This document shows, piece by piece, positions 26,828 to 54,031 of a DNA stretch of 64,000 nt (its first letter is position 1; each line of letters begins with the position of its first letter). The notes under the pieces are model-generated. The model worked only from the letters and a program-made list of their open reading frames with translations. It ran no database searches and had not been told where the DNA came from. A program made the position numbers and the translations under genes. The stretch is from Haloarcula halophila (lineage in GTDB: Archaea; Halobacteriota; Halobacteria; Halobacteriales; Haloarculaceae), in NCBI RefSeq assembly GCF_029278565.1, contig NZ_CP119562.1, positions 1-64,000 of the forward strand, written 5' to 3'.

Positions 26828-27444
26828 AAACTGGAGTCGACTCGACGAAAGCCAGCGCGGCAACTGAGGACGCGCCGACGTCCTCCTTCGGGAGTAGCGT
26901 CTACGGCGGCCGGCCGACGTTCGCGATGACGCGCCGCGAAGGGTCGAACGGCGGCGCGGTCACGCTGTACGAACTGCTCCCCGAAGAACAGGCTACCGCC
27001 CGTCGCGACCGACTCGAACGCCGCGGGCGTTCGCTAAACATCGAGTCCTTCGAGGAGGTCTTCGACGATTCGTCGGCCGACGAAGCGACGCGCTGGGACT
27101 GGGAGGGATGGACGGCGGTGAAGATCGCGCGTCTCGACGGCTGTCGCTTCCGCGCTCTCTCCCCACTCATTAAGGAGACTGTCGACGGCGCGGAACTTGA
27201 CGCCACCACTGTGACGACCAGCGGTGTCGGCGACCTCTTCCTCCCGGAGACCGTCGGCGTTCGCCTGGCGCTCGCGTTCCGCGGCATCAAACCGCTCCAG
27301 CGTGTTGACCGGATGCGTGCCCTGTGCCGCGGCATCGCCCGCATGGGCGACGAGGAGTGTTACTACTGGCACGCGAAGTGTCGCGCCCCGTCCAGCCCGA
27401 ACGGCGAAAAAGCACTCCGGACCCTGCTGACTGACCACCTATGA
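26824..27444 (+). CDS. DUF7680-type protein of the defence operon
   Basis: 206 residues, wedged with 4-nt overlaps between the ATPase and methylase genes. Recognisable stretches are FAMTRREGSNGGAVTLYELL, GVRLALAFRGIKPLQRVDRM and ECYYWHAKCRAPSSPNGEKA near the end. I associate this protein with DUF7680, found next to DUF499/DUF1156 pairs; no activity is known to me. The conserved basic C-terminal half might bind DNA or a partner. Confidence 0.55.
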   Translation: MKTGVDSTKASAATEDAPTSSFGSSVYGGRPTFAMTRREGSNGGAVTLYELLPEEQATARRDRLERRGRSLNIESFEEVFDDSSADEATRWDWEGWTAVKIARLDGCRFRALSPLIKETVDGAELDATTVTTSGVGDLFLPETVGVRLALAFRGIKPLQRVDRMRALCRGIARMGDEECYYWHAKCRAPSSPNGEKALRTLLTDHL

Positions 27445-30305: not shown

Positions 30306-30310
30306 GCATA

Positions 30311-31282: not shown

Positions 31283-31314
31283 CACCAGATTGAGATAGTC
31301 AAATAAGCTCACTA

Positions 31315-35250: not shown

Positions 35251-35293
35251 ATGGGTAGTTTTGTAACCATGGACTTCCCAGATGAACCAATAG

Positions 35294-35458
35294 ATGCCAA
35301 ATACTGCTCTTGAAGCAAATATCCGCGCTATCGGAGACGGTGCGAGACTGGAACAGTTAGCTGTTGACTTGCTTGGTCGAGAAGGATACGACGTCGATTC
35401 CGTATTCGACCAAAATCTCAAACAGAGCCTCCACGAACTCGCTAACCTTCTGGGGTGA
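35294..35458 (+). pseudogene. Remnant of a restriction-endonuclease-like gene
   Basis: 54 residues: ANIRAIGDGARLEQLAVDLL, then GREGYDVDSVFDQN, then a short tail LKQSLHELANLLG. The first part looks like the N-terminus of a restriction-type nuclease whose catalytic middle is missing, joined to what may be its last residues. It sits between the helicase and the GmrSD-type gene, so an internal deletion of a third nuclease gene is likely. Confidence 0.4.
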
Positions 35459-35521
35459 CTTGACTCGACCCGGAAACCCGCCCACAACGGTAAATGGACG
35501 GACTACAAACAGCAGTCAATA

Positions 35522-37963
35522 ATGTCGAACGAGGCTGACGATTTGTATGATAAGTACATCGACTACGATGGCAGAGATCTCGATACCCGGAATGTCGGTG
35601 ATGGGAAAGTAGTTCGGCCGATTACGGCCGAGAACTTTGAGATGGAGAAACGGACTCTGGGGGAGGTTCTCACCGATCAGAAGTTCAACGTACCAGAGTA
35701 CCAGCGACTGTACTCGTGGAAGAATATCCACCACGAACAGTATTGGTCGGACATCGAGCAGTTCGTTAATGCCGACCTGGTCGCTGACCGACGCGAGGTG
35801 TCGGACGTATTCTTCAGCTCGATGTACTTCGCAGTCAACGACGACAAACAGGTCTATGAGGTCATCGACGGTCAACAGCGGCTGACGACGACACACCTGT
35901 TGTTACGCGTCCTTATGGAGCACCTCGAGGACGTCGATCCAGTTTCTATCGAGGACGATACTATAGCAGAGTTCCGGGACTATGGGATCGGGCGAATCAC
36001 CGGTATCCTGTATGTGGAGGAAGCGTTCGGGAAACGTGAGCCACGGCTCACGCTGAACAAACACGACGCTGAATTTTTCAAAGCCCTCATGATGGGGCCG
36101 TCCGCCCAGGTGAACTACCTCAAGAATGAAGCTGACTTCAGCATTCACGGTAACAACAGCGACGCAGTACAGGTCTCGGAATGTCTGGACCGGTTCGGCA
36201 CCACGGAAGATGAACTCGCGAACTTAGATACGGACTCTCTCTCATCGGGGGCGTTCTTCAAACTATATCGCTCACACAGGCGGTTGTTGAACGCTTACGA
36301 GTTCTACGACCTGAAGATCAGCAACGTCGTCGCCGACGCCGAGACGCCGGACGAGACGGTTCGAGCGCTTGTGAACATCCTCAATTACGTTTACAATTCC
36401 TACCACGTCGGGGAATACCTGATTCGAGAGGCGGAATCGGACTTCCGAATGCAAATCTTCGAGATTTTGAACGACCGTGGCGTCGATCTGACAAAGATCG
36501 ACCGTATCAGGGCCGCAGTCGTGAACGCCTTCTTCGATACCGACGTGAAAGACGAGTACGTCGACAAGTGGGAAGACATCGTGGTGGCGTTCGCGACCGA
36601 TGGTGATGCCATCGACGACTACCTCTCCATCTATCTGAGTATCGTCGACGATGGCATCGACAGGATTGGTGACGCGAGCGCCGAACTGACCAACGCTTTC
36701 GACACGCGGAACATCGACTCGGATGTCGTCCCGAGGCTTCGGAATATCGATGAAGCGAAAGCCTTCCTTGACTACGCACACGACCTCATCGACTACTACC
36801 AAGATATCACTACGACGGAGCTCGCCGCTGAGGACCTTGAGTTAGCCAGCCACCGAGAGCAGTGTCAAGAAATCCTTGTTCGCCTCAATAACCAACAGAT
36901 GGACCAGTGGCGGCCATTCGTCCTGGCGCTCTACTATCACACCAATCCTGAATCGGAACGGGATGCAGCACAGTTCTACCGCGTACTAGAGACCATCGAG
37001 AAACTCAACTTGCGACGCCTCCTCATCTCTGAACGACCGAGTATTTTCCGCGAGGTCTTCATCGAGACCGTCGAGGAGTTCAATCTCGCACCAACTGCCG
37101 ATGCCACCCCAGATAGTGTGTACGAGGCTTCTCGAGAGTATCTCATCACCGAAATGCGTTCCTCTACGCCGACGCTGTTCGGCGACCGGTTCATCGATAC
37201 GGTCGTCCAGACTCAGTCTTGGAGTACCGGAACGGCGCGACTGCTCTTCGGGAAGATCGCCCAGGATCACTTCGACGACAGTAGTCGTGCCGTCGAGCGA
37301 GACCTGAACATGGGGAACATCCATCTCGAACACGTCCTCCCACAGACTCCCGTCAGCGACCCGGAAGACCCTACGTGGCTTCGAGAGTTTTTCAAACTCG
37401 ATTCGGAGCCGGATATCGAGATCGCCTCAGAGATCGAGCGCTACATCGAGCTGGTGCAGCGCTCTGATCTCGACGAAGAGGAGGAGCGACTGAAAGACAA
37501 CATCTCGGAGTTCATCACGCAGGGGTTCATCGACGATATTGGGAACTTCCTCCTGCTTCGTGACTCCGATAATATCGGAGCGAGCAACCGGCCACTCGCC
37601 GAGAAAATGACGCAGTATTACACCGAGATCGACGGTTTCGCGAGTATCTACCCTAATCGGTATTTCACGGCCGAATATGGCAACGTCGACCGCGAACCTC
37701 TCGACAAACTCCGTGAGCAGCACGATGGCGGTGACGTTTCGACCGTGGACGCCGATGTAGTGGCATATTTCAATTCATTCTGGACCTATGAGTCACTACA
37801 GGACCGACGGGTTGAGCTGCTGTTGGATATTCTAACGACGCTAGGCTTCGAGTCGTTTGAGGATGAGTTCGGGATCGGCTCTGATCAAGAGGAGGTACGC
37901 CAAGAAATCCGAGAGAAGACTGACCAAGAGTTTAAGAAACGACTTTCTGTCCGCTCTCTTTGA
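35522..37963 (+). CDS. GmrSD-type DUF262/DUF1524 restriction protein
   Basis: 813 residues. The DUF262 ParB-like NTPase site is seen in FNVPEYQRLYSWKN (about 55-68) and YEVIDGQQRLTTTHLLLRVL (about 113). The DUF1524 HNH-like nuclease has LEHVLPQTP near 602 and RPLAEK near the end. These domains are fused as in one-protein GmrSD enzymes, type IV systems that cut modified phage DNA and use NTP. Its placement next to a methylation-based locus would give protection against both unmodified and modified invaders. Confidence 0.82.
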   Translation: MSNEADDLYDKYIDYDGRDLDTRNVGDGKVVRPITAENFEMEKRTLGEVLTDQKFNVPEYQRLYSWKNIHHEQYWSDIEQFVNADLVADRREVSDVFFSSMYFAVNDDKQVYEVIDGQQRLTTTHLLLRVLMEHLEDVDPVSIEDDTIAEFRDYGIGRITGILYVEEAFGKREPRLTLNKHDAEFFKALMMGPSAQVNYLKNEADFSIHGNNSDAVQVSECLDRFGTTEDELANLDTDSLSSGAFFKLYRSHRRLLNAYEFYDLKISNVVADAETPDETVRALVNILNYVYNSYHVGEYLIREAESDFRMQIFEILNDRGVDLTKIDRIRAAVVNAFFDTDVKDEYVDKWEDIVVAFATDGDAIDDYLSIYLSIVDDGIDRIGDASAELTNAFDTRNIDSDVVPRLRNIDEAKAFLDYAHDLIDYYQDITTTELAAEDLELASHREQCQEILVRLNNQQMDQWRPFVLALYYHTNPESERDAAQFYRVLETIEKLNLRRLLISERPSIFREVFIETVEEFNLAPTADATPDSVYEASREYLITEMRSSTPTLFGDRFIDTVVQTQSWSTGTARLLFGKIAQDHFDDSSRAVERDLNMGNIHLEHVLPQTPVSDPEDPTWLREFFKLDSEPDIEIASEIERYIELVQRSDLDEEEERLKDNISEFITQGFIDDIGNFLLLRDSDNIGASNRPLAEKMTQYYTEIDGFASIYPNRYFTAEYGNVDREPLDKLREQHDGGDVSTVDADVVAYFNSFWTYESLQDRRVELLLDILTTLGFESFEDEFGIGSDQEEVRQEIREKTDQEFKKRLSVRSL

Positions 37964-38074
37964 TCCCCTGAAAATCGATTGGGAGCCCTCAATCGAATCC
38001 CTGCGACTCGTTTCGGGGGAAGCCTATTCCTATCTCCGATCTGAAACCCCACGTACCCATTTGGTATCAACGCG

Positions 38075-38821
38075 ATGACTAGCGATTCCGATCTCCATCC
38101 AACGCTCCAGCCGGATTATCATATCGCAGAGCGTGTGCGGATGCAACTGGAAGTATTCCCGAGAAAATTCCGCCAACTGAACGAAGGCGGCCAATTAAGC
38201 ACCATTCTCCGTAGGACGCAAACACTCCCGGGGGCACGGGTCGAACAGGCGCCGGAAGTATTCACTGAGCAATATCTCATCGAGCCAGTCCTGAACGGAC
38301 TCGGGTACCGCAACCCAGCCTCCGAACAATATACAGGCGACGGGCCACACTTCATTCGCCAACCCCTCACATATGACAAGGTAGAGCCGTTGCAACCGGA
38401 TTATCTACTCAAGGAAATCGCTCCTGAAGTGGTTTGTATTGTCGAGGCGAAAGCGGCGAATCGAGAACAAATGTGTGGAGCCAAACAAAAAGCGACAGAG
38501 GATATTCGAACCTATATCGAAGAGGACACATTCTGTAAGTACCTTCGAGATATGGAGCAACGGTATCTGGTCGGCATCGGAACTGACGGACTCCGATGGA
38601 CACTATGGCTGAAAGATCTCGGAACCGGGGAAACAAAATCCGGTGTCCCGAAAGTGGATCTCACACCGATCATCGAGCAAGAGGCGATTCGGCTCGACAC
38701 AATCGATGGTGAAGTCGCTGACGGACGAAATGCTGCACGGAATCTACTTTTAGATGAGTTTGTTCCTGCATTTGCAGTAGATAATTTGCTCGACCATGTG
38801 AAGACTGAATTCAGTGGCTGA
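38075..38821 (+). CDS. PD-(D/E)XK nuclease-like protein (type I R N-terminal type)
   Basis: 248 residues. QYLIEPVLNGLGY, then PDYLLKE and VVCIVEAKAANR give the P-D...E-x-K core of restriction endonucleases, as in the N-terminal domain of type I R subunits. TDIRTYIEE-like DIRTYIEED and YLVGIGTDGLRWTLW match the later helix and strand. No helicase is fused to it, so it is either free-standing or serves with the DUF262 protein 111 nt upstream. Confidence 0.7.
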   Translation: MTSDSDLHPTLQPDYHIAERVRMQLEVFPRKFRQLNEGGQLSTILRRTQTLPGARVEQAPEVFTEQYLIEPVLNGLGYRNPASEQYTGDGPHFIRQPLTYDKVEPLQPDYLLKEIAPEVVCIVEAKAANREQMCGAKQKATEDIRTYIEEDTFCKYLRDMEQRYLVGIGTDGLRWTLWLKDLGTGETKSGVPKVDLTPIIEQEAIRLDTIDGEVADGRNAARNLLLDEFVPAFAVDNLLDHVKTEFSG

Positions 38822-39223
38822 CTATCTAATATGGTACCACACAGGCTCCTAACACTGAGTGACTGGTCGGTGTCTAGCTTGTGTTGGCCATTGGGCTGTT
38901 GACCGTATCGACCGTGGCGTGGATGGTGCGATGACCGGGATCTTAACCAACAGGCGGTGGTAAAAGGTGGCAGTGTTGGTTAACAAACGCCACCATTCGA
39001 ATCAACCGATAACCGGTCGGTAATTCGAGAGTTGAACAACCAGAGCGAGTTCACGCCATGGCTTCGAACTGTCCAGAACGTCCCTATTTGAGTTGAATTT
39101 CAGTCTGTAGTTCTTGCTTCAGTTCGACCGATTCGTCCAACAAGACCTCTGACTGGACAATATATTCCTCACTAAGTAGTTCAAAACTGTCTAACGTCCT
39201 CGCGAATCTCTTCCCGCTCTCGA
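38822..39223. other. Intergenic region with operator-like repeat
   Basis: No gene firmly supported. It holds inverted repeat copy 3 and a minus-strand frame (39084-39356) ending FELLSEEYIVQSEVLLDESV that could be a small helical protein but overlaps the plus-strand gene at 39224. Confidence 0.4.
38943..38983. promoter_or_regulatory. TTAACCAACA inverted repeat, copy 3
   Basis: Perfect 10-bp arms TTAACCAACA (38943-38952) and TGTTGGTTAA (38974-38983), arm starts 31 bp apart. Unlike copies 1 and 2, no leader hairpin lies beside it. It is 29-34 kb from them, so any regulator would act on dispersed sites of the element. Confidence 0.6.
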
Positions 39224-39490
39224 ATGGAGGGATTCCCTCTCGGTGAGTCTGCCACTCCACCTGGTGCTCATATTGAACTCCTTGAGAGTCCGCCCGCCTT
39301 TTTGACCATTCCGGCCGTAACGTGTGATGGTGCCTGTGACACGCTCCACTTTCCAATGATCACCGAGACTACACTCGGCATATGCCCGTTTTACGAGACG
39401 CAGATACCAGCAGGTATGGTACTTACTAAATACGAGGATGGCGTCTACGCGGAGTGTCTCTCATGTGAGGAGCCAGTCCACCCAAGTTAA
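39224..39490 (+). CDS. Small Cys-rich hypothetical protein
   Basis: 88 residues: MEGFPLGESATPPGAHIELL, VTCDGACDTLHFP, ICPFYETQIPAGMVLTKYED and CLSCEEPVHPS. The Cys pairs (CDGAC, CLSC) suggest a zinc site. It converges on the CARF-like regulator with a 4-nt overlap of 3' ends. The start is uncertain; M at the later MITETTLG is possible. Confidence 0.45.
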   Translation: MEGFPLGESATPPGAHIELLESPPAFLTIPAVTCDGACDTLHFPMITETTLGICPFYETQIPAGMVLTKYEDGVYAECLSCEEPVHPS

Positions 39491-40377
39491 TTCGTTTCAA
39501 CCCACATTCGGCCCATAGTCGACAGCTCGGTTTCGAGACGATTTCCTTCTTTCTCACGGTCCACATAGCCCTTTTCGTCAAGTTTCGTGACGTTGTATTG
39601 GACTCGGCTTCGGAACGACTCATCATACTCGACATCCAACGATTGGGCCAGTTTCTCAGCCAGTGACGACGTTGACGATATCGAGTCTCTCCCCCTTAGG
39701 AAATTCAGTATCTTCTTTTCAAAGTCGTCAACATCGCTACCCGGAGACGAGGGGAACTCGACGTACATCTGCCCATCCATATCCTTCGCTCCTTCCGTGA
39801 CACCACCATCCTCAACCTTCTCCAAGATTTCGCAAATGTTCTGGTACTGTGGATAGACATCGAGACTTTCCTGGCCCTTCATCCAGTCTCTGGCATCTTC
39901 CAACGCTTCAATCATATCGAGGACAAGGTAGTTATCCGGTGGGACGTAGTAGGTATGGAGCTTATTGCGGATCTCCTCGACTTCCTTTTGATACTCAGTA
40001 ATGATTGAGTCAGCGGCGGTCGCAAAGGCGAACGCGGTGGTCCTCGGCATCGAGGAAATGTTGACATAGACATCGTTACCTTCCACGATTTCGTTGAGGA
40101 TGTAGTCGTGCGCTTCGGGATAGAGGAGCTCGTATTGGTACAACTTTTCGACCTCCAATGTTTCTCGTTCGACTTCGACGTCGAAAAGGTCAAAAGAGTT
40201 CTCCAGTCTATCGGTCAATCTCGACGCGAGTTCCGCTGCACGGCTAGGGTCATCGTTATTTTCGATATCATGCGTCACGAGTACGACACGGTCGGCTTCC
40301 ATCTGTCCCTTCGAAATCGGGAGGATGAGCCGGTCAAAATCGAATCCAACCGGCAGGAAGTGGACCCGTTCAGTCAT
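39487..40377 (-). CDS. CARF-like HTH regulator (DUF6293/HFX_2341 type)
   Basis: 296 residues. The N-terminal Rossmann-like half (HFLPVGFDFDRLILPISKG; VVLVTHD; NDVYVNISSMPRTTAFAFAT) has the fold and NISSxPR motif of the CARF-related DUF6293 family. The C-terminal part (SVFR-free linker, then SSLAEKLAQSLDVEYDE, SRVQYNVTKLDEKGYVDRE) is a winged helix. Relatives such as Csa3 sense nucleotides and control CRISPR or defence genes. No CRISPR is nearby; it may govern the adjacent defence genes. Confidence 0.75.
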   Translation of the reverse strand: MTERVHFLPVGFDFDRLILPISKGQMEADRVVLVTHDIENNDDPSRAAELASRLTDRLENSFDLFDVEVERETLEVEKLYQYELLYPEAHDYILNEIVEGNDVYVNISSMPRTTAFAFATAADSIITEYQKEVEEIRNKLHTYYVPPDNYLVLDMIEALEDARDWMKGQESLDVYPQYQNICEILEKVEDGGVTEGAKDMDGQMYVEFPSSPGSDVDDFEKKILNFLRGRDSISSTSSLAEKLAQSLDVEYDESFRSRVQYNVTKLDEKGYVDREKEGNRLETELSTMGRMWVETN

Positions 40378-40481
40378 GGTTCTCTCTGTATCTGTTTCAT
40401 GCTAAAGACCTTCGTTATCCGCTATCTATGTGTGTCGAGTTATGTCCCGAACCCAAATTCGTATTTCGTTTCGCCTAATCT

Positions 40482-41342
40482 ATGACACTCTTAGAAGAAT
40501 TTCCAAACAACATTTATCTGTGTTCGTCTCGTAGTGGTCAAACAGGTGCCATTGGAAAAATACTGCACCTAACGATCTACATGACCCCGTTCCCCAAGGA
40601 TTTCGGCGGCAAGGTACATCCAAGCCATCCGGCGCACAAAGAGCTGTTCGCACACCGACCAGACTCCGTTCCGTTCGTTGCCTGCAAGTTCCACCGAGCG
40701 TCGTGGTTCGTCAATCACCCTCGGATACAGTTCTTGCACCCCGACCAAGACCTGTTCATCATGACGTACGAGAACGACGGCCACATACTTGGACGCACTC
40801 CCACTGACGAGGTCGACCGATACGAGAAGTTGGAGGACGACGCTCAAGGCGTGTTCCCTGGAGACCGGTTCACCTACGACGAGGGGATGAACCGACGCGA
40901 GCTCGTCAAGGAGATCGAGGAGAGTGTCAAGCGACAACTCACGGTGCAGGAGCTGATGACGGATATCGACATCCCGGTCTACCCGTGTATCATGGGGTGG
41001 GAGGATTGGCACTTCGAGCGATGCCGTCCCCTTGTCGAGAACATCAGTCGCTCCGTCGGATTCGACGCGACCCAGTACTACTCCAAGTACCGACTGAAGG
41101 AACACGTCGAGACGATGGTGGAGGTCCTCGATGTCAACCGGGTCTTCGTCAACGGACGTATCGCACCGGAATGGCTCAAGATGCTCCCGGAGTGTGTCGT
41201 ATCCTGCTCAGGAGCCTGGAACATCCGTCAGGAGGCGAAGGACGCGACCGGGGAACTCCAGGGCGACCGAATGCCCGACATCGCAGCGAGGCGCGTAGAC
41301 GCACTGAACGAATGGCAGTCCGACATCACAAACTTCCTATGA
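40482..41342 (+). CDS. Unrecognised protein, possible TIM-barrel enzyme
   Basis: 286 residues: NNIYLCSSRSGQTGAIGK, FVACKFHRASWFVNHPRIQF, PVYPCIMGWEDWHFERCRPL, SVGFDATQYY, NRVFVNGRIAPEWLKMLPEC and VVSCSGAWNIRQEAK. The last blocks are spaced like the beta-strand ends of transglycosylase-type barrels (P-V-x-GW...RC; VFVNG; SCSGAW), a weak likeness I cannot test. It is divergent from the CARF-like regulator and coupled to 41339-41800. Confidence 0.55.
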   Translation: MTLLEEFPNNIYLCSSRSGQTGAIGKILHLTIYMTPFPKDFGGKVHPSHPAHKELFAHRPDSVPFVACKFHRASWFVNHPRIQFLHPDQDLFIMTYENDGHILGRTPTDEVDRYEKLEDDAQGVFPGDRFTYDEGMNRRELVKEIEESVKRQLTVQELMTDIDIPVYPCIMGWEDWHFERCRPLVENISRSVGFDATQYYSKYRLKEHVETMVEVLDVNRVFVNGRIAPEWLKMLPECVVSCSGAWNIRQEAKDATGELQGDRMPDIAARRVDALNEWQSDITNFL

Positions 41343-43400: not shown

Positions 43401-44102
43401 GTGGCATCAGTTAGACCACTGAAGGCCGCTCCAATAATCTTGATGGCAACAGATGGCGCCAAACTCCTGTATGGCGGTGTTTTCTCTTGGGATGGAAAAA
43501 AGGTATTAGCGGGATTAACATGGACAATGGGTGGTTTTTTCTGTGGGCTTTCACTTGCTCTTTCAGCGTTTATTCAGTCTGCTAAAGTAATTAGAAGAAA
43601 CAATTCTTCTAGTATTTCGCCATATAGTCCACCAACGCTTGTATTTTTGATATTAATAGGGCTCGCCAGTGCGATAGCTCATATCTCAATTATCTTAATC
43701 CCAGGGTTACTAATATATTTATTCCGAAATTTTCTCACTCCATTATGGGTCATTGTTAGTCTGATTCTATTAGCAATGATGGTTGGCGAGTTTACTTCAG
43801 GACGTAACAAAGTGATAATTAAGATTTTAGGAGAGGATATTGAGCGACGTTTGAACCCTCATAGGTCTTCACATGCCAAATCGATAGAACCTGACCCAAT
43901 TGACTTAAGCAAATATTTTCGAAGCACACCCGCAGAAATCACAGAGTCTGCATTAGATGAAGTATTCGGAAAATACGATCGCTCGAATACTAAAGGAATT
44001 TCGAATAAAAATTCTGACCAAACAACCAGCAGGCGTTTATCTACTGACGAAGCTAACAATAAACTGGAACAAATTAAAAAAGAACTGGAGAAAAATAATT
44101 AA
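43401..44102 (+). CDS. AT-rich membrane protein, 3-4 TM segments
   Basis: 233 residues from GTG 43401: TM segments WTMGGFFCGLSLALSAFI, LVFLILIGLASAIAHISIIL and PLWVIVSLILLAMMVGEF, then a polar tail with EANNKLEQIKKELEKNN. Codons are AT-rich and Lys/Asn-rich, unlike the flanking haloarchaeal genes, pointing to a foreign source. The stop converges with the next gene by 4 nt. Confidence 0.55.
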   Translation: MASVRPLKAAPIILMATDGAKLLYGGVFSWDGKKVLAGLTWTMGGFFCGLSLALSAFIQSAKVIRRNNSSSISPYSPPTLVFLILIGLASAIAHISIILIPGLLIYLFRNFLTPLWVIVSLILLAMMVGEFTSGRNKVIIKILGEDIERRLNPHRSSHAKSIEPDPIDLSKYFRSTPAEITESALDEVFGKYDRSNTKGISNKNSDQTTSRRLSTDEANNKLEQIKKELEKNN

Positions 44103-44896
44103 GACCGAAGCCAAATTCTAATGTCACGAATACGGTGTTTTAGTCCCATCACTACTGGTTCCTGCTGGTCTCTAATCAGTATGGCGGCAGCAAACCAAAA
44201 TCCAATTGTGTAACCAAATGCACCAGCTAGCGTCGCGATTAACTGACCGATGAATGCAAAGTTAAACAGTTCCGCACCGGTTGTGAATAATATGACACCA
44301 AAAATAATCTTTTGATCGAACTTGTCGCGAACCGGTCGGAGCTTCCAGTGGAGGCCAATAAAGGTCACAAAAAGAGTGACTATCGTCCAGATGAACTGAA
44401 TAGTATACCCTAGCGAACGGAGAAACGGGCCGTTTACTATAACATATCCTATAAAATAAAGGCCTATAAATATAATAAAAATAGCTGTGAGCTTATGTTT
44501 TATTTTAGCTCCGAAATCTCCACCCCATCTCCGTGACCGTGTAAACCGTATCACTTTCTTATAGAATCTGATTGCTGCAACGCCCTCAATTGCTCGTCCA
44601 CAAAATAATAGTAATATAATATACCAGTTTGATATTTGGTAATTTTGAATTACAGCAATAGCTGATAGCAGGATGCCAAATGTTAACCCAGAGATTAGTA
44701 ATTTATAATCACGAGTTGGTATAGTTATTTTATCGGTGTGTTGGAGATCGGTGTTATCCCGGGGAAACACATAGACACTCTGCTGAATATGGTAGATGAG
44801 AATAAGCTCAACTCCGAGCAGAACAAGTAATGGAGCCAGCCAAAGCGGGACTGAATCAATCCAAAAACCAAGCTGCAGAAACAGTGAGAGAATCAT
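44099..44896 (-). CDS. AT-rich polytopic membrane protein, about 7 TM
   Basis: 265 residues with hydrophobic segments throughout, e.g. VPLWLAPLLVLLGVELILIY, LLISGLTFGILLSAIAVIQ, AIFIIFIGLYFIGYVIV, IQFIWTIVTLFVTFIGLHW and ATLAGAFGYTIGFWFAAAIL. Basic loops (RFTRSRRWGG). No family recognised. Overlaps the upstream gene by 4 nt, so the two form an operon. AT-rich like its neighbour. Confidence 0.6.
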   Translation of the reverse strand: MILSLFLQLGFWIDSVPLWLAPLLVLLGVELILIYHIQQSVYVFPRDNTDLQHTDKITIPTRDYKLLISGLTFGILLSAIAVIQNYQISNWYIILLLFCGRAIEGVAAIRFYKKVIRFTRSRRWGGDFGAKIKHKLTAIFIIFIGLYFIGYVIVNGPFLRSLGYTIQFIWTIVTLFVTFIGLHWKLRPVRDKFDQKIIFGVILFTTGAELFNFAFIGQLIATLAGAFGYTIGFWFAAAILIRDQQEPVVMGLKHRIRDIRIWLRS

Positions 44897-45255
44897 ATAT
44901 CTGCCCTCACCAGCTCCTTGATGATCAGCACAGAGAATCCGATGGGGAGTAGCAATAGTAGGACGAATGACATATATCCGTAGATTTCGGTGATAAGCGG
45001 GGAAACATGGATGCCACCAATTCCGGTGCCCCCAAGAGAGAGCGCAAACAGATATCGCGTTCGCTGATTCATTTTCATGTGTTCATTTGTCATTCTAGCG
45101 TTCATTATAGCGGTAGTGAGTAGACCGACTGCCGTTCCAATTGTTCCCATACCTAACATCAACAGAAGTTCTGGATTTAGCATCTCAAAAGGCCCAGGCA
45201 TATCCAAGAACTCGTCAATCAGCGTTTGCAACCATAAAATCGTCATTCGATTCAT
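44893..45255 (-). CDS. AT-rich small membrane protein, 3 TM segments
   Basis: 120 residues: MNRMTILWLQTLIDEFLDMP, TM MLGMGTIGTAVGLLTTAIM, YLFALSLGGTGIGGI and YMSFVLLLLLPIGFSVLIIK. Translationally coupled to the 265-residue gene. It diverges from the TRIP13-like ATPase across a 182-bp AT-rich gap. Confidence 0.55.
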   Translation of the reverse strand: MNRMTILWLQTLIDEFLDMPGPFEMLNPELLLMLGMGTIGTAVGLLTTAIMNARMTNEHMKMNQRTRYLFALSLGGTGIGGIHVSPLITEIYGYMSFVLLLLLPIGFSVLIIKELVRADI

Positions 45256-45437
45256 AATTTGACAGTCATTTTATATTTGGGTTTGTTTTAATTGAATCTG
45301 AGTGATGTCTACCCCTCAAATATGTATATTTATGTATGGGCCACGATACGGAATTTAGATCACTTTCCGAGTTGTAGAGTTTTTCGCTCAAATTGGCACC
45401 CTAAGATATTAATTGATGTCAATACTTGTTAAGCAAT

Positions 45438-46445
45438 ATGGCTCGTCGGGCAACAGGCACTGAAGACGAGGACATATCGGGGGCAGAATTCGTACGCCGG
45501 TATGATCTCTCAGAAGTTGACTGGAAGGAGAAATGGGATAGAATATATATTAACGAGAAGGACAAAGAGAAGCTGATCAACTACGGTTTACTGGAACAAC
45601 AATTACAAGCGGCATCGTTTGATCAGATGACGTTAAGCCGACACGGTGCGGTATTGCTATCAGGACCGCCTGGGACGGGGAAAACAACGCTCGCAAAGGG
45701 CGCGGCGTACAAACTCGCCGAGGAAATCGACCGCGAAGCGCTTGGACTTGAGCGCGTCGTGTTCAAGCAGATTGAGGTTAGGAATCTATTTTCGAGTGAC
45801 CACGGCGATACGCCGAAACTCGTTGAGGAGGCGTTTGACCGGGTGATAAAGGGTGGCCAGCGTGGTCACACCTACCAAGTTGTCCTGCTCGACGAGGTTG
45901 AGTCACTATTCGCGAATCGAGGGTTGCTCGGTGACACCGACCCGATGGACGCTATCCGCGCGGTCAACACTGCCCTTGATTGTCTAGACGCGTTATCTGA
46001 CCTCGACAATATCTATGTCATCGCGACATCGAACCAACCAGGCGCCGTTGACAGTGCATTTGTGGACCGCACAGACGAGCAGATTTATATCGGGAATCCG
46101 GAGCCGAAACACCGGCGCCAGATACTTGAAGACATCTTCACCAGCCTCGAGGAGGCATTCGAGACGCAACTGTCGCCAACGGACGAACATATAGAGACGC
46201 TGGTCAGGCTTTCGGACGGCTTCTCCGGCCGACGGATGCGAAAGAGTGTCCTCTCAGCTCTGGCCAGAGAGACATCGACGGTTCGGGATCCGGCGACACT
46301 CTCAATCGACCAACTGCTTCGCGAGTTCAAACACAAACGGGAGATGCTCGACAACGCCGGCAATGATTACATCCAGCTCGGAGTAACGCCTGACCAACCT
46401 AACGACGCAAGCAACGACAACGACCAGGAGGGAGCTACCGAATGA
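45438..46445 (+). CDS. Pch2/TRIP13-like AAA+ ATPase
   Basis: 335 residues. Walker A GPPGTGKTTLAKG (about 76), Walker B VVLLDEVESLF (about 148), then DAIRAVNTALDCLDAL, sensor I VIATSNQ and FVDRTDEQIYIGNPEP. The DEVESL box and the F-V-D-R-T/A-D...YIG-P block are hallmarks of TRIP13/Pch2. These hexamers pull the N-terminus of HORMA proteins to remodel them; in bacterial CBASS (Cap6) they switch the system off. Two or three HORMA proteins are encoded just downstream, which makes the assignment strong. Overlaps the next gene by ATGA. Confidence 0.85.
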   Translation: MARRATGTEDEDISGAEFVRRYDLSEVDWKEKWDRIYINEKDKEKLINYGLLEQQLQAASFDQMTLSRHGAVLLSGPPGTGKTTLAKGAAYKLAEEIDREALGLERVVFKQIEVRNLFSSDHGDTPKLVEEAFDRVIKGGQRGHTYQVVLLDEVESLFANRGLLGDTDPMDAIRAVNTALDCLDALSDLDNIYVIATSNQPGAVDSAFVDRTDEQIYIGNPEPKHRRQILEDIFTSLEEAFETQLSPTDEHIETLVRLSDGFSGRRMRKSVLSALARETSTVRDPATLSIDQLLREFKHKREMLDNAGNDYIQLGVTPDQPNDASNDNDQEGATE

Positions 46446-47224
46446 GCAATGGAACAGCCGAATCCACCGATATCGGTGTCGACACAATCGTCGACAATCG
46501 CACCGCACTGTACGACCAATTGGAAGCCCAACCGTATCGTCTCCTGCAGGAGGAGGTCGCGGAACTCATCACGAGTACCGTCGAGGCGGCGGGACGGGAC
46601 GCTAACGATGTCGAGACGGCGCTGCTGTCTGATCCCCTCGACGAGGACTGGTGGTTCTCGATTGCAAACGGGCAGGCACTTGATGCGATTGTCGTCACCG
46701 GTAACGAGGGGGTGATTCGCGTCGACATCACGTACGAACTCGGCGACGAGCGGGATCTCACAGTCCCGAGCCCGGACGCGCTTCCCATCCTCGATGACGG
46801 GGACGAGTTGACGATTTACTGCCTGATGAATCGCGACATCGACCTTTCGGCTACAACCGGGAACGTCAAAGTAGAGAGCATAGTGCCGGAGCCAAAAGAG
46901 GAGATAACCGATCCAGGGCCGGCGGAAGAGAATCCAACCGACGGAGAGGGCGAGACCAAGGGCCGCGATAAGCCGTCTACTGACACTGAGCCTGTCACCC
47001 TCACACTCATCGGGCCAGAAGGCCAGGAGGACACCACTGAGTTACCACATGACCAGACAATGGGGTTCGTCGTCACGGATCTAAAGCAGTCGCACGACGT
47101 ATATGACGCTGAAATTGGTCTGTACGAGGATAAAAAGTACTCGACAGCTATCGACAATAGTGCCGACCCTGGATCATACGACGGAGGGACCGTATACTGG
47201 CAAGTTGAACGGAGGGCGGCTTGA
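46442..47224 (+). CDS. HORMA-cassette protein with possible ubiquitin-like C-terminus
   Basis: 260 residues. The N-terminal part (LQEEVAELITSTVEAAGRDA; WWFSIANGQALDAIVV) is alpha+beta; a polar Pro/Glu/Asp linker spans about 150-190. The last 75 residues (PVTLTLIGPEGQEDTTELPH, TMGFVVTDLKQ, YSTAIDNSADPG, GTVYWQVERRA) read like a beta-grasp domain: two strands, helix, then a final strand. This is inference; no Gly-Gly end is present. Coupled to the ATPase, so it belongs to the same system. Confidence 0.5.
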   Translation: MSNGTAESTDIGVDTIVDNRTALYDQLEAQPYRLLQEEVAELITSTVEAAGRDANDVETALLSDPLDEDWWFSIANGQALDAIVVTGNEGVIRVDITYELGDERDLTVPSPDALPILDDGDELTIYCLMNRDIDLSATTGNVKVESIVPEPKEEITDPGPAEENPTDGEGETKGRDKPSTDTEPVTLTLIGPEGQEDTTELPHDQTMGFVVTDLKQSHDVYDAEIGLYEDKKYSTAIDNSADPGSYDGGTVYWQVERRAA

Positions 47225-47291
47225 GATGTGCTGCACCACCATCTCTCAAATCGAGTTGAATCAAAGGCGAACAATTTGGAGGAAGTAACTT

Positions 47292-47894
47292 ATGGCGAGT
47301 AAATCGGGAGTTCATACGGATGTCAACGCAAAGGTCACGCATAAAGTGTGGACGGAAACTGCGAACTTCGTGGTCAACTCCACGGTTGGATTCCTGTTCG
47401 ATTATGCTCAAGCGCGTGGTTTGGGGACTGATCGGATCTCGAACAAACGAGAGGAATTAGAGAGCGCGTTATACACATATCTTAACACGAGACACTTGCG
47501 GAGGGTATCGATCGAGGTTTACGAAGAAGGTGCTGGGAAAGATGACGAGGCTATCGAGCGGTTCGACCTTACCTTCGACGTGAAGGATCCAGACAATCTC
47601 TCGGACGATGAAATCAAAAAACTACAAGATAGAGACTTCAATCAGTATCGAAAGGATGTAATGAGTCAGTTACAGGATCTCGACTCACTCCCATCTAATG
47701 TAAACTATCGAATCCTCATCTGGTGTGTGTCAGAGAACGACCTTGGCCAACCGAAACCGGATGTCAAAGGTTGGTCGTCGACGACAGCTCGGTCGACTGA
47801 CCACCTGAGTAAAAAAAATCTCGGGGATGACGAGGATGGTAGTGCGATTCGGGCCGGAGCAGTCAACGCTGACGCTAGTCTGTGGATTCGCTAA
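47292..47894 (+). CDS. Bacterial-type HORMA-domain protein 1
   Basis: 200 residues. KVTHKVWTETANFVVNSTVG, ISNKREELESALYTYLNTRH, LRRVSIEVYEE, IERFDLTFDV, LPSNVNYRILIWCV and, near the end, PDVKGWSSTTARSTDHLS. The order, and especially the P-D-V-x-GW...RSTD block in the safety-belt region, matches bacterial HORMA proteins of CBASS loci such as the Pseudomonas one I know. HORMA proteins close around a short peptide and activate a partner. Here, TRIP13 would reset it. I rate this high because the ATPase is adjacent. Confidence 0.75.
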   Translation: MASKSGVHTDVNAKVTHKVWTETANFVVNSTVGFLFDYAQARGLGTDRISNKREELESALYTYLNTRHLRRVSIEVYEEGAGKDDEAIERFDLTFDVKDPDNLSDDEIKKLQDRDFNQYRKDVMSQLQDLDSLPSNVNYRILIWCVSENDLGQPKPDVKGWSSTTARSTDHLSKKNLGDDEDGSAIRAGAVNADASLWIR

Positions 47895-47908
47895 GGAGGC
47901 CCCACGTA

Positions 47909-48190
47909 ATGCCAACAGTCAAATTCACCATCGACGGCGACGAGCACGAAGTCGAAATCGACGGCGCGCATCCGAACGATGTGTATCAAAAGGGCGACGA
48001 AGTCGTTGACGCAATCGAGCAACTCGGCTACGAATACACTGAGAGCCCACCGACTATCCAAAACCTCGCGGACGCCGACCGGATGACCCGCGAGGGTGGC
48101 GTCATGGATCTCGGCGAGATAGACGATCAGGTGACTGGAAGTAGCAGTGGGGGTAGTGGTGGAACGCCAGAGACTGAGGAGACCTCTTAA
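47909..48190 (+). CDS. Small acidic protein of the HORMA cassette
   Basis: 93 residues; start MPTVKFTIDGDEHEVEIDGA at ATG 47909 with AAGGAGG 9 nt upstream. The beginning looks like the first beta hairpin of a ubiquitin-like fold, followed by a helix (VDAIEQLGYEY). The C-terminus is a flexible Ser/Gly tail (TGSSSGGSGGTPETEETS). Either a small ubiquitin-like protein or a carrier of a HORMA-binding peptide is possible. Both are speculation. Confidence 0.5.
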   Translation: MPTVKFTIDGDEHEVEIDGAHPNDVYQKGDEVVDAIEQLGYEYTESPPTIQNLADADRMTREGGVMDLGEIDDQVTGSSSGGSGGTPETEETS

Positions 48191-48196
48191 CCGAGG

Positions 48197-48730
48197 ATGT
48201 CATGGAATTATCCCACAGTGAGGGTGTTCGCGAACCCAGAGAACCAAAACTTCGTCGTCACCCAAACGGTGGGATTCTTGATTTCTTTTGCTCACTCGCG
48301 TGGCATAGAAACTGAGCAAATATCGAACAAAAGAGAAGAACTCGATAGCGCCTTATATACATATATTGCTACGCGACATCTACAGGTAGTCCGAATCGAG
48401 GTAGTTGACCAAGAAGACATTAACACCGCGATTGAGTGGGCCGACCTCTTGTTCGAGTGGGTATCTGCAGATGACCTCGAAAAAGGACAAGAATCGGACT
48501 TCGACCAATCTCGAAAAGATGCGATGAAGCAGTTGCAAGGTCTCAACCCGTTTCCGTCGTCTACCGAGTATCGGGTTTTGCTCGGCATCGCGAGTGAAAA
48601 CGACCTCGGACAAGCGCCTCCTTCCATCGACGGATGGGTAAAGACAACTCCTCGCAGCCCACCGGAATCTGCCGACGTTCAAGATAAAGACCGACAGTGC
48701 GACCTCACCTGGTACGAACACATTCTATGA
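48197..48730 (+). CDS. Bacterial-type HORMA-domain protein 2
   Basis: 177 residues, paralogue of the protein at 47292: NFVVTQTVGFLISFAHSRGI, ISNKREELDSALYTYIATRH, VVRIEVVDQE, QLQGLNPFPSSTEYRVLLGI and PPSIDGWVKTTPRS. The shared ISNKREEL(D/E)SALYTY box shows a duplication within the locus, while the tails have diverged. Two HORMA proteins with one remodeller occur in some type III CBASS loci. Overlaps the next gene by ATGA. Confidence 0.75.
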   Translation: MSWNYPTVRVFANPENQNFVVTQTVGFLISFAHSRGIETEQISNKREELDSALYTYIATRHLQVVRIEVVDQEDINTAIEWADLLFEWVSADDLEKGQESDFDQSRKDAMKQLQGLNPFPSSTEYRVLLGIASENDLGQAPPSIDGWVKTTPRSPPESADVQDKDRQCDLTWYEHIL

Positions 48731-49203
48731 CACGTAACTCTAGCAACACCGGAACGAACACCAAGCAAACGACGAAAGCCCACTCGAAGACCCTGGTACA
48801 GAACCAAATTGCGCAGCTGTATTCTTTGATTAGGCTGGAGTCAGATGTCAAACATGACTTCCTTGAGAACAACCGTGATATCTTAGAGAACATCTTTGAG
48901 ATGGGACTTGACCAGGAGCGGCTTGACGAGGTGTGGTTCGTAATTGTTGACCAGCAGCATCGCATCGTTGACGAATGGGTACTTGACATATCATATAATA
49001 GCGGATTTTACGAGCTTACATCGCCCGCACGCGAGACGGTCCAAGAGGAGGTTGCGTATTACGGAACCAACGATGGTTACAAGGCTTTTATCCTCCCAGT
49101 AATCGACGGTCAGAACGTCTTCAACACGCCAGATAGCGACGGTTTCGGCGTCGGTTCGTTTGGTGGACCCGGTGTCAACGTGGACATCGGCCACCTGCGG
49201 TAG
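48727..49203 (+). CDS. Possible third HORMA-fold protein
   Basis: 158 residues, coupled to HORMA protein 2. FLENNRDILENIFEMGLDQE, LDEVWFVIVDQQHRIVDEWV and LDISYNSG align by eye with the helix and the two strands that follow in bacterial HORMA proteins (N-x-R...LRKV-x-EIY...W-DIDIVYG). The end, GYKAFILPVIDG and a glycine-rich tail, differs. A divergent HORMA fold is my best guess at moderate-low confidence; a dedicated partner is the alternative. Confidence 0.5.
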   Translation: MTRNSSNTGTNTKQTTKAHSKTLVQNQIAQLYSLIRLESDVKHDFLENNRDILENIFEMGLDQERLDEVWFVIVDQQHRIVDEWVLDISYNSGFYELTSPARETVQEEVAYYGTNDGYKAFILPVIDGQNVFNTPDSDGFGVGSFGGPGVNVDIGHLR

Positions 49204-49322
49204 CTAGGCGACCCCGAAAACCACCAGAGTCTCAGTTTCTCAGGGGATTTATCAACTCTGAACCCGACAGAGTTAGGCCCAAGATGGTAAAAAAATAAGT
49301 ATGTAACTCAAAATAACACTTT

Positions 49323-50222
49323 GTGGACGCAAAAGTAGATACATCCCTTGAGACTTCTCGGCGACATTTTGTTTCGTCGGTTGGGGCATCTGTAGCATCC
49401 ATAAGCGCCGGTAACCAGATATCTCCTCAAGCAAATCTTCAATCAGATATACTGTTCTATGAAGATTTTGAGTCCGGTGAAACATCTAAATTCACATCAG
49501 TAGGGACAGGGCCAAATACGCTACCTGCAGTTGTTGAGGACCCTGCTGTGGCTGAAGGGCAATATATGTTGAGAACTGGCCGCGGCGGCACAAGCACTGC
49601 GGATCCGATTGAAATACCCGATTCTGGTGCTTTCCAGATTTCTTTTTCTGTTGCCCTCATCTCAAGTAGATACTATGCTGAATCAGCAATTGCTACTATA
49701 AATTACAACTCGCAAGAAAAAAACCTTTTATCATTATTCGGGGATCCTGATGGTAATTTCAGTTCAGGTATTAATGATATTGACCTTGGCAGTTTTGAGC
49801 TAGACGAGTGGACTAATTTTAGAGCTGTTTTCGAAAAGAACCAGGAATCTGTTGAGTGTGTGTACTATCTTAATGGTTCTCAAAGGGGGACAGCTGAAAT
49901 CGAGTCTGATATTTTTGGTACAAACCTTGAACTGGAAGTGTATTCTGGAGAGGCTGCCCTATGGGATGAATTTAGAATCGAATATCAAGAAGAGTCAGCA
50001 AACGCGGGCGATTCTAATTTTGGTTCTGATGGTGTAGGAATTCTGTCTGGGTTTGTGGCTCTTGTTTTAATGGCTTTTGCCATTATATTCACCGCGATAT
50101 CTTCTTCAATCGGTTCAGGAAGTGAATCTAAGACAGGCTCCCAACGACAAGTTACAGAAGAAGATGTACAGGATGGTCTTGAGAAAGCAGAGGAATCCCT
50201 ACAGCGAGACCGTCGTCGATGA
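49323..50222 (+). CDS. Exported membrane-anchored protein, LamG-like
   Basis: 299 residues from GTG 49323. A twin-arginine-like signal (SRRHFVSSVGASVASISAG), a jelly-roll/concanavalin-like domain of about 190 residues (ILFYEDFESGETSKF; LDEWTNFRAVFEKNQESVEC; ALWDEFRIEYQE), one TM helix (LSGFVALVLMAFAIIFTAIS) and a charged cytoplasmic tail. AT-richer than neighbours. It lies 119 nt behind the HORMA cassette in the same direction; membership of that system is unproven. Confidence 0.55.
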   Translation: MDAKVDTSLETSRRHFVSSVGASVASISAGNQISPQANLQSDILFYEDFESGETSKFTSVGTGPNTLPAVVEDPAVAEGQYMLRTGRGGTSTADPIEIPDSGAFQISFSVALISSRYYAESAIATINYNSQEKNLLSLFGDPDGNFSSGINDIDLGSFELDEWTNFRAVFEKNQESVECVYYLNGSQRGTAEIESDIFGTNLELEVYSGEAALWDEFRIEYQEESANAGDSNFGSDGVGILSGFVALVLMAFAIIFTAISSSIGSGSESKTGSQRQVTEEDVQDGLEKAEESLQRDRRR

Positions 50223-50754: not shown

Positions 50755-52509
50755 TCACCCGGCTTTCCGGAGAAAGTTCCCGACCGCCCGGACGAACGTC
50801 CTGGCGGTCACGATTGGCGGCGACCTGATTTCTCGCTCTATGCCGACTTTCACCAGAAAGTCGGTGAGTCGCCACAGATTGTACAGTAGCGCTGCGAACG
50901 TGAAGTTGAACAACCGCACTCGGTAGTCTGTTGAGGAGGTCTTGGGGAGGTACGCTTTCACCGACTTGTACTGGTTTTCGATGTCCCAGCGACGGCTATA
51001 GCTGTTCGTCACGTGAGCGATCTCGTCGGGATCGACGTGATCGCGGTTGGTCACGAATACGGCGTACTTGCCTTCAGCGTCGTCACTGGTGGCTGGAACG
51101 TACAGATATTCTGCAGTATGATCGACGTCCCCGTCTATCCCGACGGGGACGCCGTGGTTGACGGCCGCGTCTACCCCGTCTTTGCTCTCGATTTTCTCAA
51201 TGGCCTCGTAATCCGGCTCGTACTTCGGTACTGGCATCGTGTACAGCAAGCCACGACCGTTGATCTCTGCACGGACGTTTCTCGTGTAGAAGCCACGATC
51301 TAGCAGAATCTCGTCGAGATCAACGTACCGCCGGGCTCTCGAAAGCAGACGCGCTACGACGTCTGCTTTCGAGTCAGCTGGGGCGTCGACTGGTTCCCAG
51401 TCTGAATGTTCCTTGACGCCCTCAATCCCAAGGATGATCGGAACGTCGTTCCCGACGATTGTGATCGTCGCGAACGTGTAGCCGTGTTTCAACTCACCGT
51501 CGTCGACGTACCCGCTCACCATGGGCGGGTACGTCGACTTTGGGATCTGTTCGTCCTTGTCGATCCACGGCCAGACGTGATAGGGGACGTGCGTGAAATC
51601 GACGGCCGCCACCACGTGGCGGTCGTCGAATGGATCTTCGTAACGTATCGTCTGGAGGATGTTCTCGGTGGCAGTATCGAACGCGTCCATGAGATACTCG
51701 CGGAACACCTCGGTGAACGCGACGATATCCTCGATTTGTTGCTCTTGGAGTGGGATAGAGACCTCCTGATCAGCCGACATTGCGAACTGCTTGATTACAC
51801 GGAGGAACGTCGAATCGTCACAGGTGTCGTTCTCGTCGAGAAACCAGCCAGCTTCGCCTTCAGAATGGGCGCTTCCTTGGGTGAGGCATGCCGAGGCGAA
51901 CAGATCGAGGATCTGTTCGTCCTCGTAGACTTTGTTATCGGCTCTGTGAGAGTCGAACTCGCCGAAGGCGTGCCTTCGGGCGAGCTCGACGATCTTGTTC
52001 CCCTGCTTTCGAACGTGCTCGCGTGTTACGGTCGGTTCATCATCGTTCTCCTCGATATCGTCTTCATCTGGGATAATCGGAACCCGTGCTTCCAACACGA
52101 CGCCATGATCAACGGCTTCTTGTGCGATACCCGTAGCTGCGGCGTTAAGCGTCCGTTTGGTCTGTTCGCCGAACTGCTCCCACGCGTACGAGAGTGATTG
52201 CTGGCTCGGTGCCTTCTCCAATTCAAGTGTTTTCAGGAGTGATGGTCGGTTTTCGAGGCGATCTGCGACCTCGCTCTGGGCGAGGTCGTAGATCTCCTGA
52301 TAGAGATACACCCGAGCCATCGGTTCAGTGCCGTTTGCGACCTTGTGTTGCTGGCGGTCGTCGGTGAGTCCGTCAACTGGAATCGATACCTCTCCAAGGA
52401 CACGCCAGAGATGATCCACTGATTCACAGACTTCCCCAGCGTGATAGACGACCGCCCCCGCGAGCGCGGGGGCGTCGTCATCGACTGCCGTCAATCGGTT
52501 AGAACTCAT
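50755..52509 (-). CDS. IS4-superfamily (IS1634-like) transposase
   Basis: 584 residues from MSSNRLTAVDDDAPALAG at ATG 52507-52509; TTG at 52542 is possible. Catalytic residues are visible as AAVDFTHVPYHVWPW (first Asp), DEILLDRGFY (second Asp) and YSRRWDIENQYKSVK, which fits the Y-2-R-3-E-6-K signature of IS4 transposases exactly. Length suits IS1634-type members. The reading frame is intact, so the element may still be active. Its exact ends were not resolved. Confidence 0.8.
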   Translation of the reverse strand: MSSNRLTAVDDDAPALAGAVVYHAGEVCESVDHLWRVLGEVSIPVDGLTDDRQQHKVANGTEPMARVYLYQEIYDLAQSEVADRLENRPSLLKTLELEKAPSQQSLSYAWEQFGEQTKRTLNAAATGIAQEAVDHGVVLEARVPIIPDEDDIEENDDEPTVTREHVRKQGNKIVELARRHAFGEFDSHRADNKVYEDEQILDLFASACLTQGSAHSEGEAGWFLDENDTCDDSTFLRVIKQFAMSADQEVSIPLQEQQIEDIVAFTEVFREYLMDAFDTATENILQTIRYEDPFDDRHVVAAVDFTHVPYHVWPWIDKDEQIPKSTYPPMVSGYVDDGELKHGYTFATITIVGNDVPIILGIEGVKEHSDWEPVDAPADSKADVVARLLSRARRYVDLDEILLDRGFYTRNVRAEINGRGLLYTMPVPKYEPDYEAIEKIESKDGVDAAVNHGVPVGIDGDVDHTAEYLYVPATSDDAEGKYAVFVTNRDHVDPDEIAHVTNSYSRRWDIENQYKSVKAYLPKTSSTDYRVRLFNFTFAALLYNLWRLTDFLVKVGIEREIRSPPIVTARTFVRAVGNFLRKAG

Positions 52510-53040
52510 CGTAGTTTCGAGCGCGGCAGCGAGCGGTTTCAAGTCGTCACATTAGTCGCCAAATCGACTGTTCCAGATTCTTATCGAATTCATAGCTGTC
52601 TCGTCACACGGTACTGCTGTCCAATCAAAGTATCACCAAGCTAGTGGTTGGTAGAAATCGAGATCCCGAAAACGTGGCCGAAATGTGTAGAAAATGGTAT
52701 AGCGATATATGATACATCGGTATTCCAAAAACTAAAAATCCACCTTTGTAGGCTCTCAGGAGACCAAATACGAGTGATTCTCGCCCTTTCTCAAGTGCTT
52801 ACGTTTACTCCAATAGACGTACCTACTCGGCCTGGCATGGCTTCACCGGGTGAACGAAGGCGCGTACAAGATTTGCACTCCACACCGCTCCCAGAGGAAA
52901 GTCTCGCTACTGGCACACTACCGGGTGTGTGCTACCTTTAGAGAGATAAGATACATTACTATTCAATTGCAGCTACCACAAGAAGTACTGCCAGAACGAG
53001 TTGACCCTTTAGCCTCCTACAATATTTGGATTAGTTAGCA
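52510..53040. other. Intergenic region right of the IS4-type element
   Basis: No gene supported. It contains the right direct-repeat copy and AT-rich sequence leading into the ParA iterons. Confidence 0.4.
52591..52617. repeat. Direct repeat flanking the IS4-type element, right copy
   Basis: Partner of 50464-50490, 2127 bp apart. Divergence outside the 27-bp core suggests an older repeat pair rather than a fresh target duplication. Confidence 0.7.
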
Positions 53041-53167: not shown

Positions 53168-54031
53168 ATGTCAGGTACCTCACGGGCGGTAGCTGTCGGC
53201 GTTTTAAAAGGCGGGTTCGGAAAGACCACGACAGCAGTCAACCTCGGTCGGGAGCTGGCTCACCGCAACGATCGAACGCTCCTGATCGATCTCGACGACA
53301 ACGGCCACATGACGCTTAACCTCGGTCACGAGGAAGCCTATAGCGCTGAAACAAACCACGCGGCCGAAGTACTACTTGATGGGGCCGATCCACATCAGTA
53401 CACCGTTGACGTGGTTGATGGCTTAGACCTGTTCCCAGCACACGTCGCGTTGGAGGATGTCCAGTCGGGTCTCAAGGAAGCCACGATGGGGACAACGCGA
53501 TTGAAAGAAAATCTGGTCGACGAAGTCCTCGAATCAGACTACGAGTACATCATTATCGACTGTCCAGCGAACCGGGGGAAACTCAACGACAATGCGATGT
53601 ACGCAACTGGGAACATCATCATTCCACTTCGGCCAGAGAATGGCTACGAGAGTGGATTGACGAATACGATTCAGCGACTCGTAATGGAGGCACGAGAGTA
53701 CTTTGACCTGGATATTCTCGCTGTTACACCAACGGATCTCTCGGATCGCATCGACCAGGATACTCGGGACCGCCGTCTCCTGCGCGAGTTGACTACGCGC
53801 GACGCAGTCGCTCGTCATGTTCCGAACTATGCGTATCTCTCCGAGGATGACTGGGATGCTGTTGACAACGGCGACTATGACGGTGCTCTCCCAGGAATCC
53901 GACACCGGGGGGCAATCGATAATGCGAACGATGCAGGTCTCCCGCTGCGTGACCACGACTCGACGTGTGATCAATTGACGTGCTATGATGAACTCGCTCA
54001 GATTGTGGAGGCTGGGGAGGTGCAGCGCTGA
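53168..54031 (+). CDS. parA: ParA-type partition ATPase
   Basis: 287 residues. The deviant Walker A KGGFGKTTTAVNLG lies at 14-27; Walker A' LLIDLDDNGHMTLNLG and Walker B YIIIDCPANRG follow. These define the ParA/Soj family, which segregates plasmids. The protein has no N-terminal HTH, so DNA recognition should rest with the partner encoded immediately after it. Iterons directly upstream support a partition operon. Confidence 0.85.
   Translation: MSGTSRAVAVGVLKGGFGKTTTAVNLGRELAHRNDRTLLIDLDDNGHMTLNLGHEEAYSAETNHAAEVLLDGADPHQYTVDVVDGLDLFPAHVALEDVQSGLKEATMGTTRLKENLVDEVLESDYEYIIIDCPANRGKLNDNAMYATGNIIIPLRPENGYESGLTNTIQRLVMEAREYFDLDILAVTPTDLSDRIDQDTRDRRLLRELTTRDAVARHVPNYAYLSEDDWDAVDNGDYDGALPGIRHRGAIDNANDAGLPLRDHDSTCDQLTCYDELAQIVEAGEVQR

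Follow-up and report, generated by a model that had tools for sequence, protein, structure and literature searches.

HORMA proteins and the ATPase TRIP13 run checkpoints, meiosis and repair in eukaryotes without the involvement of a cyclase. To our knowledge, the prokaryotic HORMA-TRIP13 pair has been described only as a regulator of the cyclase in cyclic oligonucleotide-based antiphage signalling systems (CBASS). In type III CBASS, peptide-binding HORMA proteins and TRIP13 regulate the cyclase (PMC9122588; PMC10419184), and the action of TRIP13 on HORMA has been interpreted as a threshold switch (PMC7159879). Here we describe a HORMA-TRIP13 cassette from the haloarchaeon Haloarcula halophila, located within the first 64,000 nucleotides of contig NZ_CP119562.1 (the window, which refers to the whole of this stretch), in which no CD-NTase, the enzyme that defines CBASS, was found. 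The literature searched contained no description of an archaeal HORMA-TRIP13 pair or of one lacking a CD-NTase, but such loci may have been mentioned earlier.

Composition and recurrence of the cassette

The cassette is a recurring unit. A scan of a species-level genome collection detected it, with gene content and order retained, in Halorientalis regularis TNN28 and Salinibaculum litoreum HD8-45, both members of the Haloarculaceae, the window organism's own family. The copy in S. litoreum, which is on a closed chromosome, has by synteny the full order mA, m265, m120, mB, TRIP13, g2, HORMA1, g4, HORMA2, HORMA3 and g7; mB is not in the window copy, and the Halorientalis contig stops inside this gene. 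The composition of the cassette is well supported. All the genes named in the original prediction, which covered positions 45438-49203, were present and intact in the window sequence.

The gene at 45438-46445 (forward strand, 335 aa) was correctly predicted to encode a Pch2/TRIP13-like AAA+ ATPase. It matched the TRIP13 model of PADLOC with an E value of 5.5e-61 (the runner-up, IetA, gave 7.6e-18) and its best PDB chains by sequence were Pch2 and TRIP13. The protein has a TRIP13-type AAA+ core with Walker A (GPPGTGKT) and Walker B (LLDEVESL) motifs, and is 88-94% identical between the three loci.

Two HORMA proteins had been predicted downstream of the ATPase; both assignments held, and their number is very likely three. 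HORMA1 (47292-47894, forward strand, 200 aa) matched Pfam bacHORMA_2 (PF18173) at 4e-17, over the curated cut-off, the PADLOC HORMA model at 7e-19 and, in the PDB, 6p8r (8e-9) and 6p8s, which are structures of a CBASS HORMA2 protein from P. aeruginosa. HORMA2 (48197-48730, forward strand, 177 aa), which is 52% identical to HORMA1, also exceeded the curated cut-off of PF18173 (2.3e-6). As judged from their sequences, both are HORMA proteins of the CBASS HORMA2 type. The third, HORMA3 (48727-49203, forward strand, 158 aa), was searched as the protein from 48730 onward and matched the PADLOC HORMA model at 0.0013 over residues 10-90, in a collinear alignment with the HORMA profile. An AlphaFold2 (AF2) model of HORMA3, built from three close sequences only, had a mean predicted local distance difference test (pLDDT) score of 58, rising to about 65-82 in the core. 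The first PDB match of this model in Foldseek was again CBASS HORMA2 6p8r (4.5e-4), in a list dominated by HORMA2, Rev7 and Mad2. In VIA-align the top four matches were all CBASS HORMA2 chains (Z 5.8-6.5; 104-113 residues aligned with a root mean square deviation of 4.1-6.7), whereas unrelated chains scored Z 4.6 or lower; the HORMA2 values are middling when taken alone. The profile match and the modelled fold agree independently, and 48727-49203 was consequently taken as very likely encoding a third HORMA protein. Identity between loci is 79-86% for HORMA1 and 92-95% for HORMA3; HORMA2 is fast evolving (43-50%).

The two remaining genes of the central segment are interleaved with the HORMA genes. 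The product of g2 (46442-47224, forward strand, 260 aa) comprises, by regional conservation, a conserved N domain (residues 1-142), a variable linker and a conserved C domain (residues 184-260), and matched no family in Pfam, PADLOC and other searches; its AF2 model was unusable (pLDDT 32). The N domain has a weak collinear similarity to HORMA3, but z ranges from 1.2 to 6.5 depending on the pair compared, so that a fourth HORMA-like domain can be no more than suspected. A ubiquitin-like pattern suspected by eye in the C domain had no Pfam match and was dropped. The product of g4 (47909-48190, forward strand, 93 aa) is 92-95% identical between loci and matched no Pfam family; its matches to designed alphaRep proteins look compositional and were discarded.

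The six-gene unit originally proposed was too small. By sequence comparison the conserved unit spans about ten to eleven genes at about 43401-50222, adding g7 (49323-50222) on one side and three membrane genes (43401-45255) on the other. The overlapping starts that had been noted are found at only two junctions of that segment (ATGA at 46442 and ATGA at 48727), the other junctions being gapped. Upstream of TRIP13 lies an imperfect palindrome of 31 bp (45393-45423, forward strand; TTGGCACC-N14-GRTGTCAA), near-identical in all three loci and present as one site per genome, which is a probable promoter or operator.

DNA similarity among the three loci ends at the borders of the unit, so the three copies lie in different surroundings with no common flanks. 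Downstream of the window copy are an open reading frame (ORF) that appears by eye to be transposase-like (50755-52542) and a gene for a ParA-type ATPase (53168-54031), fitting a plasmid-like nature of the 114-kb contig. In Halorientalis a tyrosine integrase gene (L014:938-2083) lies roughly 3 kb away from one end of the cassette. With the HORMA profile, no further credible carrier was detected among 391 sampled Halobacteria or 146 genomes of the same family, and the Pfam HORMA model identified the window's genome only across 393 genomes of the phylum. Two distant HORMA matches elsewhere in the Halobacteria were rejected, one being an acidic coiled coil (G282) and the other reading as a helicase (G131). 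No relatives were found in viral contigs queried with HORMA, g2 and HORMA3 or in phages searched with TRIP13, and plasmids queried with g2, HORMA3 and mA gave nothing credible.

Search for a cyclase

The original prediction that the cassette lacks a cGAS-like synthase was borne out at every level searched with the profiles used. None of the ten unit proteins matched a CD-NTase model of PADLOC, a bacterial CD-NTase used as query had no match in the window or in either related locus, and two cyclase profiles returned nothing credible from the three carrier genomes. A weak SMODS match (G168) reads as an archaeal CCA-adding enzyme, and a weaker cyclase-profile match in Salinibaculum (E 0.08) was below the cut-off. 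The usual CBASS partners were likewise not found in the two related loci.

The closest bacterial HORMA relatives in plasmids belong to type III CBASS. A CD-NTase gene directly follows HORMA in all six bacterial loci examined (Polaromonas, Sulfitobacter, Methylobacterium, Tistrella, Shinella and Rhodococcus), and in records from Bradyrhizobium and R. rhizogenes a cyclase lies under or beside the HORMA match. Because its defining enzyme was sought and not found, the haloarchaeal cassette is not CBASS, although its mode of action is probably that of the HORMA-TRIP13 module in CBASS. It is likely a complete system that drives something other than cyclic nucleotides.

Membrane proteins and their common C-terminal tail

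The most informative parts of the unit, the tail-sharing membrane proteins, fall outside the segment originally delimited. The gene for g7 (49323-50222, forward strand, start codon uncertain) encodes a Tat-type signal, a lectin-like ectodomain with weak Pfam matches to CBM_4_9 and Laminin_G_3, one transmembrane helix near residues 233-266 and the tail SQRQVTEEDVQDGLEKAEESLQRDRRR. At the other end of the unit, mA (43401-44102, forward strand, start codon uncertain) encodes a protein of 233 aa which by hydropathy is multi-pass, ends in the tail SRRLSTDEANNKLEQIKKELEKNN and is 64% identical to its Salinibaculum orthologue (L022:3316-4122). The mA and mB proteins are mutually related multi-pass proteins, to which the g7 family is unrelated, and the tails of all three share the pattern R-x-hydrophobic-[ST/E]-x-[DE]...L-x-x-[IA]-x-x-x-L. 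Column shuffles reached the observed similarity across these unrelated families in 1 of 2000 cases, and none of 321 other ORF ends scored as high. A tail profile run over the three genomes matched only cassette proteins below E 0.01; as the profile was itself made from cassette proteins, the information lies solely in its lack of further matches.

The g7 tail is 85-91% conserved among the loci. When the window copy of g7 is compared with each of the other copies, identity is 85-88% in the tail but falls to 23-24% in the ectodomain. The same pattern was seen in the DNA, where about 150 bases at the 3' end of g7 align at 85-86% and the remainder does not align. In Halorientalis, mB (L014:10791-10917) ceases to resemble its Salinibaculum counterpart immediately ahead of the tail, with 126 bases of contig remaining, which represents either loss of the tail or an assembly effect.

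Two further membrane genes, both on the reverse strand, lie between mA and TRIP13. m265 (44099-44896) encodes a multi-pass protein of 265 aa with no tail, 78% identical to its Salinibaculum orthologue (L022:4119-4916), and m120 (44893-45255), which overlaps m265, encodes a small membrane protein of 120 aa, 72% identical to its orthologue (L022:4913-5275). Relatives of m120 and m265 adjoin genes for FHA-bearing serine/threonine kinases in other haloarchaea (L046:4964-7382, L047:3230-6138 and, with m265 alone, L050:4868-7532), and apparently form a separate conserved module with them. At another locus (L057:3088-6566) an m265 relative preceded by a small membrane gene is surrounded by what by eye resemble phage terminase genes, perhaps in a provirus. 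The window's own genome holds two more m265 relatives (L058:5942-6712, corresponding to G000:C4:90962-91600, and G000:C1:2831257-2831943), the first of which shares the 114-kb contig with the cassette.

Proposed switch, alternatives and known systems

With the switch kept and the cyclase lost, the question becomes what the HORMA proteins clasp. The conserved tails are the best candidates because they occur on unrelated membrane proteins and, in g7, have stayed constant while the remainder of the protein has diverged; hence our proposal that the tails are clasped, that TRIP13 resets the complexes and that the membrane proteins act directly. The three HORMA proteins, probably partnered by g2 and g4, would clasp the C-terminal tail that g7 and mA have in common, as well as that of mB in loci with this gene, and TRIP13 would spend ATP unfolding the HORMA proteins and so resetting the complexes. 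A trigger sensed through a variable part, either HORMA2 or the g7 ectodomain, would tip the balance to the clasped state, upon which the membrane proteins may assemble or open and act directly, most likely in a defence response. We see not quite an even chance that this is a prokaryotic HORMA-TRIP13 system without a nucleotide messenger, a clasp switch that acts directly on tails which variable membrane proteins present to the cytoplasm, and an undescribed immune or recognition system. The fuller proposal, of a cyclase-free switch carried on mobile haloarchaeal DNA which clasps membrane-protein tails, acts directly at the membrane and likely serves defence, is offered tentatively. We infer the defence role, the weaker part of this proposal, because the cassette is related to CBASS and its neighbours in the window are defence genes. 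Directly upstream of the window copy, the one whose neighbours were compared with defence families, lies a defence island within 20 kb (23501-41342), with genes for HmaC/DUF499, an HmaB/DUF1156 methylase, an SNF2/PLD helicase and a DUF262-type (HEC-06/Orf5-like) protein, together with a CARF3 HFX_2341-type protein and a weak TGT-like protein.

Several observations weigh against tail clasping and direct membrane action. No PADLOC effector model matched within the unit, a search that an undescribed effector would escape; the window copy has no mB, and the mB of Halorientalis, which is without a tail, lies near a contig end. Being a short and charged segment that is probably helical, the tail may owe part of its similarity to generic features, and the peptides known in HORMA clasps bind as extended strands. 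Distant relatives of m265 also exist without HORMA in other haloarchaea.

The same switch could serve a purpose other than defence, controlling a cell-surface complex for recognition, adhesion or intercellular DNA transfer, which would account for its being plasmid-borne. The exported lectin-like domain of g7 differs between carriers, and the cassette occurs in three settings, namely a 114-kb contig that also carries a ParA gene, the vicinity of an integrase gene, and a chromosome. However, TRIP13 and HORMA have their nearest relatives exclusively among defence genes and the window copy directly follows a defence island, and we consider this account unlikely, although it is the most probable of the alternatives. 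It is somewhat less probable again that HORMA-TRIP13 acts on soluble g2 and g4 only, the membrane genes being a co-travelling module and the similarity of the tails having another cause. The occurrence of the m120/m265 pair alone beside FHA-bearing kinases, the shortness of the tail and the variable presence of mB are in keeping with such an arrangement, but the tail is common to unrelated families, is confined to this unit and has been conserved in g7 although the rest of that protein has diverged.

A nucleotide messenger could still be made by a highly diverged nucleotidyltransferase, either g2, g4 or a protein encoded elsewhere in the genome, as g2 and g4 have no assigned fold and the g2 model could not be used. 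However, the GS-x(n)-DxD signature was not found in the sequence of g2 or g4, g4 has only 93 aa and the CD-NTase profiles gave nothing credible in the three genomes, making a hidden cyclase improbable. A decayed CBASS minus its cyclase, suggested by TRIP13 and HORMA clearly of CBASS type, was already disfavoured and is scarcely credible given that all genes are open and, except for HORMA2 and g7, 64-95% conserved in three carriers, and that the unit has additional genes of its own and a promoter element that is likewise conserved.

If the tail-clasping switch is correct, the existence of a prokaryotic unit that needs no cyclase would mean that the clasp can be coupled to different outputs outside eukaryotes too, and would provide a small system for asking what HORMA proteins sense. 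The common tail predicts a HORMA ligand inside the cassette, making this question directly testable. The cassette would represent an undescribed type of defence in archaea and, should direct action through the membrane tails be demonstrated, a new kind of prokaryotic system.

Among described systems, the type III (two-HORMA) CBASS of Polaromonas JS666 plasmid 1 resembles the cassette in its TRIP13 (36% identical), in HORMA proteins of the same PADLOC/Pfam family and in an operon with the AAA gene followed by the HORMA genes. It differs in possessing a CD-NTase and a NucC-type effector, both not found in the haloarchaeal cassette, which is archaeal and has three HORMA proteins, g2, g4 and tail-bearing membrane proteins. 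The CBASS of Rhodococcus opacus pLPS8, with an S-4TM effector, also has an AAA ATPase and HORMA near a membrane effector gene, but there the two are separated by a gene annotated as a CBASS cyclase. The gene pairs beside FHA-bearing kinases are of the same type as m120/m265, with neither HORMA nor TRIP13 seen alongside. The eukaryotic Mad2, Rev7 and Hop1/HORMAD switches share the HORMA fold and a TRIP13-type ATPase with the cassette and use no nucleotide messenger, whereas the partners proposed for the cassette are haloarchaeal membrane proteins, which by sequence are not linked to the partners known from checkpoints or repair. If our proposal holds, the haloarchaeal cassette would be a prokaryotic parallel to these cyclase-free HORMA switches of eukaryotes.

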